Below, one piece after another: positions 52,593-59,376 of a stretch of DNA of 64,000 bases. Each line of letters starts with the position of its first letter. The first letter of the stretch is position 1. The translations under genes were made by a program, and so were the position numbers. The DNA is taken from the NCBI GenBank assembly GCA_937944095.1, contig CALEAC010000081.1, positions 1-64,000 on the forward strand. Reading direction: 5' to 3'. The DNA is from an uncultured Saprospiraceae bacterium. GTDB taxonomy: Bacteria > Bacteroidota > Bacteroidia > Chitinophagales > Saprospiraceae. The notes beneath the pieces are model-generated. The model was given only the letters and a program-made list of their open reading frames with translations. It made no database searches and had not been told where the DNA came from.

Positions 52593-53903
52593 CTATCTAC
52601 GTATCATGGTATCGTAATACTCGATAACTTGGTTATCTACTAGGATATCCTTCGGTGTCATTTTCTTCTTAAGGATAATCCCCTCAAAGGTTCTACACCG
52701 ACTAAGTGCGACATAAGTCTGTCCATGATCGAACGCACCACGACCCAGGTCTATTATGACCTTATCAAAGGTTTTGCCTTGGGACTTATGGATAGTCATG
52801 GCCCAAGCTAACTTAAGCGGATATTGTTTATAAGTGCCTATGACAACCGATTTAAACTTGTTTTCCTTAGCTTCATCTATCTCATATCGGGTCATTTCCC
52901 ATTCGACTTTTTCTACTTCTAGGATCTTTTCTTCTTGATCTTGCTTAGTTATAGCTACAGATATGTTTTCTGTATCGACATGCACAACGCGCCCTAGCGT
53001 ACCATTTACAAAACGGCCCTCAGGGTCATTTTTCACAAACATGACTTGCGCATCTCTCTTTATGGTTAAGAAAGTCGGTGCAGGACTTATAGAATCTTTG
53101 AATTGCCCAGACATAGTACCAGCAAAGGTATAGGCGTCAGTTTGTAATTCTTTGAGCTTAGAGGCGTTGATTTGATTGACGATTGCATTAGTAGTACATA
53201 GGGTAATTGTTGGCACCAATAAGCTTTCCGACTCATCTGCATCAAGCAGGTGCCTCTGGTTAATCTCCTCCATATCTTCATAGTCTAGCTGTCTCGTTCT
53301 TATTCTGTCCAGCAAGCTAATGAACCCCCGATCTTGTTGTCTATAGACTGTACGTAATTCGATCATCGTCAGTTCGACTTCTTGGAAGACATCAGCCCCA
53401 AAGAAGTAGGCTGTACCATACTTATCTTGCAGTAATTTCCTTTCGAATTGTGAAGCGACGACAGGAGGAAGCTGGAATAGATCACCGAAAACGACTATTT
53501 GTACGCCTCCAAAAGGACGGGGATCATCCCTATTAACTCTCAGAAAAATGTCGATACAGTCCATTAGATCGGCTCTAACCATAGAGATTTCATCAATAAT
53601 TAGCAGCTGGAGCTTCTTATATAGGTAATGATTCTTTCGCTTAGTTAGCTCATGGGGGTCTATCAGCTTCGGTGGTAGTTTGAAAAAAGAATGAATAGTT
53701 TGTCCACTGACATTAAGCGCAGCTATGCCAGTTGGAGCTAGCACGACAGCATTTTTTTTTGTTGTTTTTTTTAGAATACTGAGTAAAGTTGACTTACCAG
53801 TCCCGGCGCGACCTGTAATGAACGCATTAAGGCCATGAGATTCTATTTGATCTAATATCTCATGAAATCGCTTATCGACTAAGAAGGGTTGTTTGTCCTT
53901 CAA
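52593..53903 (-). CDS. PIF1-like / AAA ATP-dependent DNA helicase
   Basis: AFITGRAGTGKSTLLSIL, VLAPTGIAALNVSGQTIHSFF, LLIIDEISMVRADLMDCID, WAMTIHKSQGKTFDKVIIDLG, YVALSRCRTFEGI. Confidence 0.92.
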   Translation of the reverse strand: MKDKQPFLVDKRFHEILDQIESHGLNAFITGRAGTGKSTLLSILKKTTKKNAVVLAPTGIAALNVSGQTIHSFFKLPPKLIDPHELTKRKNHYLYKKLQLLIIDEISMVRADLMDCIDIFLRVNRDDPRPFGGVQIVVFGDLFQLPPVVASQFERKLLQDKYGTAYFFGADVFQEVELTMIELRTVYRQQDRGFISLLDRIRTRQLDYEDMEEINQRHLLDADESESLLVPTITLCTTNAIVNQINASKLKELQTDAYTFAGTMSGQFKDSISPAPTFLTIKRDAQVMFVKNDPEGRFVNGTLGRVVHVDTENISVAITKQDQEEKILEVEKVEWEMTRYEIDEAKENKFKSVVIGTYKQYPLKLAWAMTIHKSQGKTFDKVIIDLGRGAFDHGQTYVALSRCRTFEGIILKKKMTPKDILVDNQVIEYYDTMIRR

Positions 53904-53906
53904 AAT

Positions 53907-54959
53907 TTAATCTGTTACTGATTTGGCTATAACCATGTAGACAGGTAGATGGTCACTGAAGCCACTTTGGTAAGCATCAAAATCAAAGGTGCGTTTAGGA
54001 TAGCCTTTGTACTTGCCTTTACGTTCGATTAAGAAATTCTTATTGAAGATACGTGCCTCAATAAATTGCAAACCCGATTGTGTATTTGTAACAAAAGGCG
54101 CGCTCACAACAATCTGATCGAACAAACTCCATCTATCTCTATTTGCATTAGACCCTAGTCCTTTATTATATAGGTTAGACATGGGGTTATACATTTCTGA
54201 GCCACTTATTTTATTTAACTTTCTCGCAGCTCGAAGATGTTTCACTAGACTCGCATTATCAGGATCATCATTCAGGTCACCCATAACGACAAATCTGACT
54301 TCGGGATCGATTGTATACAATGAATCTAGTATCCGACGGTTAACTGTAGCGGCTATATTTCTATTGACCGCACTACGTTTTTCTCCACCACTTCTAGAAG
54401 GCCAGTGATTAACAGTAATATGCAAGGGTAGACCATCTAGGCGACCAGACACCAATAATACATCTCTAGTCCTTCTGACCTTAGAAGTATCAGAAAACTG
54501 CATGTGGACAGGATAGGGTACAACCTGATCCACCTGAAAGACTGTTGTGTCGTATACTAATGCGACATCGATGCCTCTTCTATCTGGAGAAGAATGGTGA
54601 ACAAAGCCATAGTTTCTAGAATTCAATTGTGGATGGGAAATCAAATCCATGATGACAGTGTCATTTTCTATTTCAGAAAGACCTAGTAAGCTCAGTCCAT
54701 CAATTTCTTGATTTCGGCCAATCAGCGATATAACAGAAGCTATGTTAGCTACTTTTTCATTGTACTTGTCCTTCGTCCATGCTTTGCTGCCACTGGGTGT
54801 AAATTCTTCATCCCAGATCATTGGGTTATCAATGGTATCAAAAAGGTTTTCTACATTATAGAAGCCTATTGCATAGTATTCCTGTACTGATGCTTGAGAC
54901 CAAATATTAAAATTTGATACCATCAGTAACACTAAGAGCAATAATCTATGTTGAAGCAT
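53907..54959 (-). CDS. Secreted endonuclease/exonuclease/phosphatase (EEP) family protein
   Basis: Signal peptide; AIGFYNVENLFDTIDN, LLGLSEIEND, VNHWPSRSGGEKR, VVMGDLNDDPDN, FSDHLPVYM. Confidence 0.9.
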   Translation of the reverse strand: MLQHRLLLLVLLMVSNFNIWSQASVQEYYAIGFYNVENLFDTIDNPMIWDEEFTPSGSKAWTKDKYNEKVANIASVISLIGRNQEIDGLSLLGLSEIENDTVIMDLISHPQLNSRNYGFVHHSSPDRRGIDVALVYDTTVFQVDQVVPYPVHMQFSDTSKVRRTRDVLLVSGRLDGLPLHITVNHWPSRSGGEKRSAVNRNIAATVNRRILDSLYTIDPEVRFVVMGDLNDDPDNASLVKHLRAARKLNKISGSEMYNPMSNLYNKGLGSNANRDRWSLFDQIVVSAPFVTNTQSGLQFIEARIFNKNFLIERKGKYKGYPKRTFDFDAYQSGFSDHLPVYMVIAKSVTD

Positions 54960-55004
54960 ATTAAGCTGTAAAATACGGTTAGCTAAGGTGGAATCGCACT
55001 AAAT

Positions 55005-55023
55005 TTAAGCTAACTTAGCTTAA
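55005..55023. promoter_or_regulatory. Candidate operator: perfect 19-bp palindrome TTAAGCTAA-C-TTAGCTTAA
   Basis: 9-bp perfect inverted arms with 1-nt centre in the divergent intergenic region of the EEP nuclease and TonB receptor; a second palindromic TTAGCTAA lies at 54979-54986. Confidence 0.45.
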
Positions 55024-55039
55024 TATATGTGATATCAAT

Positions 55040-57844
55040 ATGAAGCTTTCTACAAATTTGTTCTTTATCGTTATTCTGCTGTTGTCTGCCTTTTCTATCT
55101 CTAGTCAGTCAATAAAAGGACGGATATTAGATGGAGAAAGTTCCGATCCTGTTAATAATATAATCTTGTCTATAGAGGGCACTCATTTTGAGGTCGACCA
55201 ATCTGGTAGTTTTAGTATACCGAACCAATTTACAAAAGAGACACTTGCACTTCAGATTTCCTCATCTAGCCATGAGTCGTATTTAATGTCGATAACGAAT
55301 AGCAAAGATGCAGACATAGAATTAGGTATACTCTTCCTAACCTTAAATAATACGAATAGACCTGATGCTCTTAAAGGGAAATCCAGTCTAATAGATAACG
55401 GCGACAATGATAGTTTCGATAATGAAGATAATGGTGTTTCCAGTTTGCTCTCTGCAAGTTGGGATCCATTTGGTTCCTTGGCAGACTTTAATTTTAGAAT
55501 CACGAGATTCAGGCCCAGAGGGCTGGGCCAGGAGCAATCAGAAGTCTATCTCAATGGATTACAATTTAATAATCTAAGGGATGGTCGATACTCATGGAGC
55601 CTATGGGGTGGCCTGAACGATATGTTCAGATCCAGATACTCAGAAATAGGGATGAACTCAACTGACTATGCAGTGGGTGCTTTAGCGGGGATGCAAAACT
55701 TCGACTTGAGATCTAAATCAAGGTCTAAGCGGTCACAGCTCACCATGGATCATTCTAATCGTTCATATCAGTATAGAACGATGCTGAGTCATAATAGTGG
55801 TGTCCAAGCGAATGGTTGGTCATATTCTCTAATGCTGTCTAAGCGCTGGGGTCAGCAAGGCTATATCGAAGGGACATATTATGATGCTTATGCCTACTTT
55901 GCTTCCGTAGATAAGGCTCTTAATGAAAAGCATAGTATTAGCCTTGCAGCATTTGCATCTCCTAGCGTACGAGGTCGATCTGGTAATACAACTCAAGTCA
56001 TGTATGACCTTGTAGAGGACAACTTCTATAATCCTAATTGGGGATATCAAAATGGTAAGATTAGAAATTCTAGGGAGTATCGCTCACATCAACCAGTGGT
56101 TATGCTGCGACATGATTATGAAGCGAACACGAGCACTTCTTTCTCTACCTCAGTCGGTGTTCAATTTGGCTACTTTGGGTCGACCAGATTAGGTTGGTTA
56201 GAAGCGCCAGATCCTCGACCTGATTATTATGGGAACCTACCTTATGATAATGCAGCTAATTTATCAGAATCAGATCTCAATACACTGACTCAAGCTTACA
56301 AGGAGGATGAGAGTATAAGACAGATAGATTGGGACAAAATGTATGATATAAACCGAAGTAGAAAGTATGGCTATAGAGATGAAGATGGACAACTAAATGA
56401 GGAGAATATATCCGCATACATCCTAGAGGAGCAACGCTTTGATAATAGAAAAATCATAGTTCAGTCACATCTTAGTCACACACTCAATACTAATTCTGAG
56501 CTCAATGCGGGTGCTAGTTTTAGGTATGATCGCAATCATAATTACAAGCTAGTTGATGATCTGTTAGGGGGTTCTCATTTCCTAGACATAGATGGCTTTG
56601 CACTGAGGGAATCTAGAGACTTCACTTTTCTTCAGAATGACATAGATCGCCCGAATAGATTACTGAGCCAAGGTGACCGTTTCGGCACTGATTACTACAT
56701 TCACAATACCAATGTGCGTTTGTGGGGTCAGTATCATCACCGTGGGAAGAGACTCGATTTTAACCTGAGGACTAGTGCTGAAAATACCAATTACTATAGA
56801 GAGGGTCTTATTGCTAATGGTAAGTTCCCAAACAATTCTAAAGGTAAGTCCGAAGTAGTCAACTTTAACCACGGTACTGTAAAGGCGGGTTTGACATACA
56901 AAATTAATGGGAGAAATTATATCTATTCTAACCTCAGCTATATGACGAGAGCGCCATTTAGTAGTTATACCTTCGAATCTGCTGATACCCGTAACAGTTT
57001 AGTAAGAGGCTTAAGTTTAGAAAAATTTCAAGCTGGAGAACTAGGCTACATACTTCGGCACCCTAAACTGAATGCAAGAGCCACTTTCTTCTATATCAAT
57101 TCTAAGGATGGGATAGAAGGCATTTCTGGCTTTCTAGAAGGCATAGGTCAGCAAGCGACTGGAGCATTTGCAAATATTATAACCTCAGGTATCGATAAGC
57201 TTAATTATGGTTTAGAGTTTGGATTGGATTATAAACTGTCATCCGTACTCAATGTGAGGTATGCCGCGGCACTAGGAGAATACATATTTACTTCGAGGCC
57301 AGAAATCACTTTGACAATAGACAATAGTGGACAGGTTGTAACATATGACCAGCAGCTAGTTGCCTATCTGGAAAACTTTAATCAGGATGCTGTACCTCAG
57401 GTCGCTCACACGCTCGACTTCGAATATAGATCACCAGCCTTCTGGTCGTTGAGTGTGAATTTTAATTATTTTGATGATATCTATATAGACCAGAATCCAC
57501 TAAGAAGGACTATTCTAACAAGTAGAGCTGTTAAGGACTTTACTGAGACCAAACGCTATGATGACCTATCATATGAAGAATTATTGGACAATCTAGTCAG
57601 TCAAGAAAAATACAAAGAGATTTTCTCCATAGATCTATTTGCTAAGAAATCTTTTAGGTGGAAGCAATATGATTTAGACATCCAATTAAGTGTTAATAAT
57701 CTATTGGACAAACAGGATATTATTTACTCTGGTTTCGAACAACTACGTTTTGATTTTATAGGCTTAGACCAGAATAGATTTGCAGCTAGATATAACTATG
57801 CTTACGGAAGAAATTATTCTGTAGGACTTAAACTTAAATTGTAA
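55040..57844 (+). CDS. TonB-dependent outer-membrane receptor with N-terminal carboxypeptidase-regulatory-like domain
   Basis: Signal peptide; SIKGRILDGESSDPVNNIILSIEGT; beta-barrel-like C-terminus RFAARYNYAYGRNYSVGLKLKL; plug-type RFRPRGLGQEQSEVYLNGLQFNNL. Confidence 0.85.
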   Translation: MKLSTNLFFIVILLLSAFSISSQSIKGRILDGESSDPVNNIILSIEGTHFEVDQSGSFSIPNQFTKETLALQISSSSHESYLMSITNSKDADIELGILFLTLNNTNRPDALKGKSSLIDNGDNDSFDNEDNGVSSLLSASWDPFGSLADFNFRITRFRPRGLGQEQSEVYLNGLQFNNLRDGRYSWSLWGGLNDMFRSRYSEIGMNSTDYAVGALAGMQNFDLRSKSRSKRSQLTMDHSNRSYQYRTMLSHNSGVQANGWSYSLMLSKRWGQQGYIEGTYYDAYAYFASVDKALNEKHSISLAAFASPSVRGRSGNTTQVMYDLVEDNFYNPNWGYQNGKIRNSREYRSHQPVVMLRHDYEANTSTSFSTSVGVQFGYFGSTRLGWLEAPDPRPDYYGNLPYDNAANLSESDLNTLTQAYKEDESIRQIDWDKMYDINRSRKYGYRDEDGQLNEENISAYILEEQRFDNRKIIVQSHLSHTLNTNSELNAGASFRYDRNHNYKLVDDLLGGSHFLDIDGFALRESRDFTFLQNDIDRPNRLLSQGDRFGTDYYIHNTNVRLWGQYHHRGKRLDFNLRTSAENTNYYREGLIANGKFPNNSKGKSEVVNFNHGTVKAGLTYKINGRNYIYSNLSYMTRAPFSSYTFESADTRNSLVRGLSLEKFQAGELGYILRHPKLNARATFFYINSKDGIEGISGFLEGIGQQATGAFANIITSGIDKLNYGLEFGLDYKLSSVLNVRYAAALGEYIFTSRPEITLTIDNSGQVVTYDQQLVAYLENFNQDAVPQVAHTLDFEYRSPAFWSLSVNFNYFDDIYIDQNPLRRTILTSRAVKDFTETKRYDDLSYEELLDNLVSQEKYKEIFSIDLFAKKSFRWKQYDLDIQLSVNNLLDKQDIIYSGFEQLRFDFIGLDQNRFAARYNYAYGRNYSVGLKLKL

Positions 57845-57864
57845 GAATAATAAATACTACATAC

Positions 57865-59376
57865 ATGAAGTTCAGAATTGTATCACTTTTCATCGTAAGC
57901 ATTAGCTTTATTTTCACTAGTTGTGTGGATAGAGATTTCGATGCACCTCCTATCTTGGAGAATGCAGATCCAAATATCCCGGAAGGTCAAATCATCTCTA
58001 TTTCGGACGTCCTTTCTCTTAGAGAAGCCGGAGAAAACTTCCATGATGTAGATATGGATATGTATATCAGAGCGATAGTTACAGCTGATGACCAATCAGG
58101 TAACTTCTATAAGAGCATAGTTATAGAAGATGAGACTGCGGGCATTACTATATTGTTAGATGATGTAGAATTATGGAACAAATATTTCGTTGGCAGGAGA
58201 GTATTCGTTCACTTAAAAAATATCTGGGTTGGTGAATTCAACGGTCTACCTCAACTAGGGTTTGAGCCCTTCGATAATGGACGAGGTCTGACTATGGCAA
58301 GAATCCCTGCGGACATGATTCCATCAACAGTAATAACTGGTCTCATATTAGATGAACCTCTCGCTAGAACCATGCAAGTTGCTGATATAACTGCTAGTGA
58401 TTATAACACGCTTATCACTATAGAGAATATGCAATTCAATGAAGAAAGCGTCAATACAACTTTTGCTGATGCAGAAAATGCAGAAGCCATTGATCACACG
58501 ATAGAGGATTGTGATGGGAACGCCTTGACACTAAGAACTTCAGGTTTTGCAGAATTTGCAGATCAGATGACGCCGACTGGCAAAGGTTCTGTAACAGGTA
58601 TTATTTCAGTCTATAATAGTACGAGACAGTTTCTTATCAGAGACTTGATTGATATAGATATGACTGGTGATAGATGTAGTGCTGCATTAGAGTCTAGTCT
58701 TGTAAGTATCGAAACGATATTAGCAAGGAGAATTGCTGGCGAGGACGTAGAATTTAATAGTGGCGAGGTTATCAAGGGTCAGATTATCTCTAGCGATGAG
58801 ACAGGCAACTTCTTTAAGTCGATTACTATTGCTGATGAGACTGGTGGTATAGCAGTGCTAGTGGACGCTACTAACACCTATAACGATTACCCATTAGGTT
58901 CTATATTCTACTTAAAACTAAATGGACTATATATTTCTGACTTTAATGCACTACCGCAATTAGGCTATACCCAAAGCAATGCTAATGTGAGTCGGATTCC
59001 TGAAAGTCTGTTATCCAACTACTTTGTGCCGACTATAGAAACACAAGCGCTAACGCCAAAGTTGGTCGCTCTTACAGAATTAAACGAGGGAATGCTTAAT
59101 ACTTATGTGCAATTAGATGACATCCAGTTCACAACTGGATCACTTAACGACAGTTATGCGGATGCCAACAATCAGGTAGCAGTTAATCACCAATTAGAAG
59201 ATTGCAACGGTAATAAAATCATAATCAGGACATCAGGTTATTCAGAATTTGCAGGGCAAACAGTACCATCAGATAATGGCTCAATAACTGGTGTCCTTCA
59301 GATTTATCAAGAAGATTATCAGATTTATCTCAACTTCTCTGAGAATGTCAATTTTGACAAAGATAGATGTCCCTAA
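57865..59376 (+). CDS. DUF5689-type lipoprotein with two homologous halves
   Basis: Lipobox IFTSCVDRDFD; both halves contain SGNFYKSIVIEDETAGITILLD / TGNFFKSITIADETGGIAVLVD and EFNGLPQLGF / DFNALPQLGY. Confidence 0.8.
   Translation: MKFRIVSLFIVSISFIFTSCVDRDFDAPPILENADPNIPEGQIISISDVLSLREAGENFHDVDMDMYIRAIVTADDQSGNFYKSIVIEDETAGITILLDDVELWNKYFVGRRVFVHLKNIWVGEFNGLPQLGFEPFDNGRGLTMARIPADMIPSTVITGLILDEPLARTMQVADITASDYNTLITIENMQFNEESVNTTFADAENAEAIDHTIEDCDGNALTLRTSGFAEFADQMTPTGKGSVTGIISVYNSTRQFLIRDLIDIDMTGDRCSAALESSLVSIETILARRIAGEDVEFNSGEVIKGQIISSDETGNFFKSITIADETGGIAVLVDATNTYNDYPLGSIFYLKLNGLYISDFNALPQLGYTQSNANVSRIPESLLSNYFVPTIETQALTPKLVALTELNEGMLNTYVQLDDIQFTTGSLNDSYADANNQVAVNHQLEDCNGNKIIIRTSGYSEFAGQTVPSDNGSITGVLQIYQEDYQIYLNFSENVNFDKDRCP

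Follow-up and report, generated by a model that had tools for sequence, protein, structure and literature searches.

The closest described system is the natural transformation machinery of Riemerella anatipestifer, which has been surveyed in a transposon screen of 3,000 insertions (PMC8459023). RA0C_RS04920 encodes a protein with DUF5689 and DUF5017 parts, and the adjacent RA0C_RS04915 encodes an outer-membrane protein with a carboxypeptidase-regulatory domain; the markerless deletion of either gene brought transformation below detection, as was the case for comEC, dprA, and recA (PMC8459023). Several unrelated envelope genes likewise lower transformation (PMC8459023). RA0C_RS04910, which encodes an EEP-family hydrolase, appears in that study only as an upstream gene with measured transcription and was not among the genes hit in the 3,000-mutant screen (PMC8459023). 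The authors found no relatives of known outer-membrane DNA-uptake machinery and left the nuclease that converts dsDNA to ssDNA unnamed (PMC8459023). In the same organism, transformation drops when either tonBA or tonBB is lost, the tonBA mutant being free of an iron defect, and the removal of phosphate lowered transformation with no induction (PMC8383284). Flavobacterium johnsoniae has all the homologs, yet attempts to transform it failed under the conditions used (PMC8459023, PMC7965970). Within the open-licence literature, DUF5689 is named by the Riemerella screen alone (PMC8459023), and nothing on a DNA receptor in Bacteroidota was found beyond the Riemerella papers, to which newer work may have been added.

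SusC/SusD glycan uptake resembles the locus described here in its TonB-dependent barrel with a CarboxypepD_reg extension, the surface-type lipoprotein encoded next to it, and a hydrolase gene nearby. In Gram-positive competence, the EndA-type uptake nuclease degrades one strand of the incoming DNA.

The locus lies in a 64,000-nucleotide stretch of DNA from an uncultured Saprospiraceae bacterium (the window), whose open reading frame list contains three ORFs of note, encoding an EEP hydrolase, a TonB-dependent-transporter-like barrel (TBDR), and a DUF5689 lipoprotein. The features are as follows:

53907-54959, minus strand: exported EEP-family (Exo_endo_phos_3) hydrolase, 350 aa (PF19580, E=5.8e-111, Pfam)
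54960-55039, no strand: divergent intergenic region of 80 bp between the EEP and TBDR genes
55005-55023, in the divergent intergenic region: 19-bp perfect palindrome TTAAGCTAA-C-TTAGCTTAA, a possible operator
55040-57844, plus strand: TBDR, a TonB-dependent-transporter-like outer-membrane barrel (predicted fold) with a CarboxypepD_reg N-terminal extension, 934 aa
57865-59376, plus strand: lipoprotein with two DUF5689 units, 503 aa (PF18942, E=1.1e-116, Pfam)

The original prediction of an exported EEP hydrolase divergent from a TonB receptor agrees with the ORF positions and the PF19580 match. The predicted lipoprotein with two DUF5689 copies is likewise borne out by PF18942 matches in two stretches, and its gene follows the TBDR gene on the plus strand after a gap of 20 bp. 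When the window is divided into 800 tiles of 80 bp, such a palindrome is found in one of them (P ~0.005 in shuffles) and showed no conservation among the relatives checked; an operator function is possible. The outer neighbors of the locus are a PIF1-like helicase gene (52593-53903, minus strand), which shares the strand of the EEP gene and lies 3 bp away from it, and an S8 protease gene. A PIF1-like helicase gene neighbors the locus in about 14 loci, mostly from the family of the window.

Because of its predicted fold, the window TBDR is identified as a TonB-dependent transporter, in which a plug sits inside an outer-membrane β-barrel. The AlphaFold2 model (pLDDT 87.6) gave 248 PDB matches with E<=0.001 in Foldseek, led by PqqU/YncD (E=4.4e-27) and followed by Fiu, FhuA, and OprC. 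In Pfam, the protein shows a weak CarbopepD_reg_2 match alone (E=0.0017) and no Plug match; the Plug profile is matched by 13 of 47 aligned TBDR homologs. Ahead of the plug, where a Ton box would lie, a short conserved run of hydrophobic residues precedes acidic ones, as read by eye only. When the Riemerella TBDR is searched against the window's genome, the window TBDR is the one strong match (343 bits, 30% identity, residues 12-934) and the next match scores 21 bits, which identifies it at the sequence level as a homolog of RA0C_RS04915. Scores of the TBDR family are bimodal across 297 Bacteroidota genomes, with full-length matches at ~900 bits or more and the next at 290. One TBDR match is split (G222:C19:401291-404102) and has stop codons in its first part, reflecting either a broken gene or an assembly error.

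The lipoprotein carries a lipobox (...FTSC-VDRDFD) and is a homolog of RA0C_RS04920. Arg224 is an invariant residue of the lipoprotein, and aromatic residues are conserved as well. Its AlphaFold2 model, built from 32 aligned sequences, is almost all β (pLDDT 92.2). Neither DUF5689 nor the EEP hydrolase has useful sequence relatives in the PDB. At E<=0.001, Foldseek gave the lipoprotein model 29 PDB matches; p204 HINab bound to dsDNA leads (8e-10), ahead of Teb1, an NER complex, CST, RPA, IFI16, and telomere end-binding proteins. The matches at this threshold are DNA-binding OB proteins or complexes, with low TM-scores of 0.14-0.47, meaning that local OB units match and their arrangement does not. 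HIN-200 domains consist of two OB folds each, so several OB folds in a row probably make up the DUF5689 lipoprotein. This modeled fold bears out the OB-like appearance noted in the original prediction, and the structural check proposed there points to a relation with nucleic-acid-binding folds. HIN-200 and RPA/Teb1 proteins share the tandem OB folds with the model and differ in being eukaryotic and intracellular, in their ~10% identity, and in their low TM-scores; no sequence-level relation was found in the PDB sequence search. A SusD-like lipoprotein was considered and rejected, given that no SusD profile matched and that the model is almost all β rather than an α-helical TPR type. In NCBIfam, the protein gives a sub-threshold match only (“M949_1556 family lipoprotein”), and literature with the M949_1556 tag held nothing on function. 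The number of DUF5689 units varies from one to three among family members; the DUF5017 part that may follow is therefore better regarded as variable than as defining. In the window lipoprotein, Pfam detects DUF5689 twice and finds no DUF5017/choice-of-anchor J part.

The model makes the window lipoprotein a proposed surface DNA receptor. It is strongly acidic (pI 4.1, net charge -46), more so than the Riemerella lipoprotein (pI 5.2, net -6), so it would require divalent cations or the help of a basic partner to bind DNA. The acidity also suits a different reading, in which the TonB-dependent barrel transports a glycolipid or a phosphoester other than a nucleotide, the EEP enzyme is a phosphodiesterase or sphingomyelinase-like, and the Riemerella defect is an indirect envelope effect. 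It would be in keeping with the sphingomyelinases and inositol phosphatases of the EEP superfamily and with the several unrelated envelope genes that lower Riemerella transformation (PMC8459023). We regard it as very improbable: deleting either Riemerella gene abolishes transformation (below detection), just as with comEC, dprA, and recA, the lipoprotein fold matches are DNA-binding OB proteins, and the nucleases to which DUF5689 is fused belong to two unrelated folds. Eleven larger proteins match DUF5689 more weakly; of these, five carry an EEP domain (L221, L225, L230, L219, L222) and four a PLD-like domain (L224, L233, L229, L234), with a T9SS sorting tail, and these fusions are probable secreted nucleases. 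Another protein of the window's genome combines a weak match to DUF5689 with a T9SS tail (L101 6539-8077, G000:C39).

The EEP hydrolase is placed in the EEP (DNase I-like) superfamily by both its PF19580 profile match and its catalytic residues. As predicted, the catalytic motifs are intact: N35, E37, E96/E98, H185, D228, N230, D281, and S335-D336-H337 are present and invariant in 16 homologs. The predicted export signal was recognized as well, in the form of a Sec-type signal peptide (by eye), and no T9SS C-terminal sorting domain was found. Being exported yet devoid of a T9SS signal, the enzyme is more likely to be periplasmic than released outside. The superfamily also includes non-nucleases, such as sphingomyelinases and inositol phosphatases. 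The conserved neighborhood and the intact catalytic residues lead us to propose that the EEP hydrolase is a periplasmic nuclease acting on incoming DNA. This role would equal the strand degradation by EndA, and a PF01223 endonuclease is present in the same operon in one related family; the EEP fold is unrelated to that of EndA, and the role of EEP is inferred.

The EEP, TBDR, and DUF5689 genes co-occur and adjoin across Bacteroidota, as the neighborhood analysis suggested in the original prediction reveals. In an even set of 297 Bacteroidota genomes, with the TBDR counted at high score and DUF5689 at strong match, the TBDR was found in 47 genomes and a strong DUF5689 match in exactly these 47 (Fisher P = 7e-56, which is to be read only as “no exceptions seen” because related genomes are non-independent). 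The two genes are adjacent and co-directional in 46 of the 47, and they lie on different contigs in the remaining genome (G017). Nearly all 249 genomes of one family have a TBDR match. A divergent EEP gene stands beside the TBDR in 30 of the 36 broad-sample loci with enough upstream sequence to be testable, nearly always at a few hundred bp or less and once at 2 kb. In a set of named Weeksellaceae and Flavobacterium genomes, the count is 58 of 59, after exclusion of loci truncated at a contig end or affected by an ORF-start artefact. The outer neighbors differ between families, and the three genes remain together. The arrangement is not due to chance, given its conservation across the phylum.

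This conservation also bears on the possibility that the EEP gene is a mere conserved neighbor with a shared divergent promoter region and that TBDR and lipoprotein take up DNA alone. The gene lies on the other strand and is sometimes located elsewhere in the genome (6 of 36 broad-sample loci), and it was not hit in the Riemerella screen. In all eight genomes checked that lack an EEP gene beside the TBDR, an EEP relative is encoded elsewhere; in two of them the matched region contains an internal stop. Against a passive neighbor speak the adjacency kept across families despite changing outer neighbors, the fusion of DUF5689 and EEP domains elsewhere, and the co-directional position of the EEP gene inside an operon in one family. 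In this family (two genomes, L235 1528-10290 and L236 1405-9287), the run comprises a larger protein, a DNA/RNA non-specific endonuclease, EEP, TBDR, and DUF5689; the larger first protein has DUF5689 in one of the two genomes, and the PF01223 endonuclease is Pfam-confirmed in L235. We therefore consider the neighbor-only role unlikely, if still a serious contender, and it competes solely with the EEP-processing step of the uptake mechanism set out below.

The Riemerella locus was matched by published gene order, as the main text of PMC8459023 is without sequences. One genome (G404) shows the order RecA-DinB-SdhB-SdhA-SdhC-ComEC-145 aa-carboxylase-EEP-TBDR-DUF5689, in which RecA, ComEC, EEP, and TBDR are Pfam-confirmed and the other genes were read by eye. 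It fits the tags RS04870 (RecA), RS04895 (ComEC), RS04915, and RS04920 step for step; therefore, the divergent EEP gene corresponds to RA0C_RS04910, of which the window EEP is a homolog. The G404 TBDR is 93% identical to that of R. anatipestifer CCUG25054 (L146), and the G404 lipoprotein has DUF5689 and DUF5017, in agreement with PMC8459023. The window thus shares with Riemerella the homologous TBDR and DUF5689 lipoprotein, their order and strand, and the divergent EEP gene. It differs in that its TBDR is only 30% identical, its lipoprotein has two DUF5689 units and lacks a DUF5017 part, and its outer neighbors are the PIF1-like helicase and the S8 protease, with comEC not nearby in the window.

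The window's genome is 83% complete and, like Riemerella, encodes ComEC, DprA, NamZ/DUF1343, and an HHH protein. The latter is a 310-aa protein with three HHH motifs encoded directly after comEC; these four match gene types found essential in the Riemerella screen. Being nearly universal, ComEC and DprA say little for membership in the Riemerella-type pair. The three-HHH gene (L216 1294-2223, G000:C181) overlaps the comEC end, and its product has an N-terminal membrane-anchor-like stretch, resembles the essential Riemerella HHH protein, and is ComEA-like. Two other genomes carry dprA (L129 4366-5478, L131 2960-4072) at a distance of a few kb upstream of their TBDR gene.

The best explanation, to which we assign a probability of about 0.7, is that the locus carries out the step of Bacteroidota natural transformation that takes place at the outer membrane. 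On the cell surface, the DUF5689 lipoprotein would bind double-stranded DNA via its OB-fold chain and pass it to the TBDR barrel, through which TonB energy would bring the DNA into the periplasm. There, the EEP enzyme would nick or degrade the incoming DNA so that a single strand passes through ComEC. For the lipoprotein and barrel steps, Riemerella genetics, homology, and the predicted fold are the basis, from which DNA binding and passage through the barrel are inferred. Support for the uptake reading as a whole comes from homology, gene order, co-occurrence, the predicted fold, the catalytic residues, and the competence genes present, and dprA in the locus neighborhood of two genomes counts in its favor. 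The DUF5689 fusions to putative EEP- and PLD-type nucleases and the predicted endonuclease added to the operon in one family (two genomes) are consistent with it, as is the lowered transformation of the R. anatipestifer tonBA mutant without an iron defect (PMC8383284). Counting against it are the acidic lipoprotein, the low TM-scores, the failure to transform F. johnsoniae under the conditions tried, the EEP gene that was missed by the Riemerella screen and lies elsewhere in 6 of 36 loci, the missing Plug match, and the non-nucleases among EEP enzymes.

The original prediction had inferred a SusC/SusD-like scavenging system for nucleic acid or another phosphodiester. Its nucleic acid ligand probably stands; SusC/SusD-like scavenging does not stand as the best explanation. 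The lipoprotein is predicted to be an all-β OB-fold chain and not of the SusD fold, the hydrolase is EEP nuclease-like with no glycan domains and no T9SS tail, and the Riemerella pair is essential for transformation (PMC8459023). The same three proteins could nonetheless capture, digest, and import nucleic acid for phosphorus, nitrogen, or carbon, with transformation as a by-product. The nuclease-like gene as constant partner, the DUF5689 fusions to secreted nucleases elsewhere, the second nuclease in the operon of one family, and the SusC-like N-terminal extension of the TBDR would all fit this use. We judge it quite unlikely. Riemerella cannot be transformed without its pair, which means that incoming DNA must be in long pieces (PMC8459023), and the partner EEP enzyme is without the T9SS tail carried by the fused secreted nucleases. 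Moreover, phosphate removal lowered R. anatipestifer transformation rather than inducing it (PMC8383284), and the TBDR/DUF5689 pair is conserved, with a TBDR match in nearly all 249 genomes of one family, unlike typical scavenging loci. DNA import as genetic material is thus better supported than phosphate scavenging because the homologous TBDR-DUF5689 pair is essential for R. anatipestifer transformation (PMC8459023); the two functions are compatible.

The TBDR-DUF5689 pair linked to transformation is of an already known kind, described in R. anatipestifer (PMC8459023). Judged by the searchable literature, three points are new: a third component that is conserved, namely the EEP gene; the prediction that DUF5689 adopts an OB/HIN-like fold; and the close coupling of the two essential genes in families far removed from the one studied. 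That a TonB-dependent transporter, a surface OB-fold chain, and a dedicated periplasmic EEP nuclease together form a pilus-independent, TonB-powered DNA importer in several families is put forward tentatively, at slightly less than even odds.

The locus bears on the route by which Bacteroidota bring transforming DNA across the outer membrane. With it, the two essential Riemerella genes are traced into a further order of the phylum; the predicted OB fold of the lipoprotein would account for DNA binding, and the EEP enzyme is a candidate for the missing dsDNA-to-ssDNA nuclease. If this is true, the capacity for natural transformation, and hence the spread of genes, would be predictable from sequence across a major phylum.
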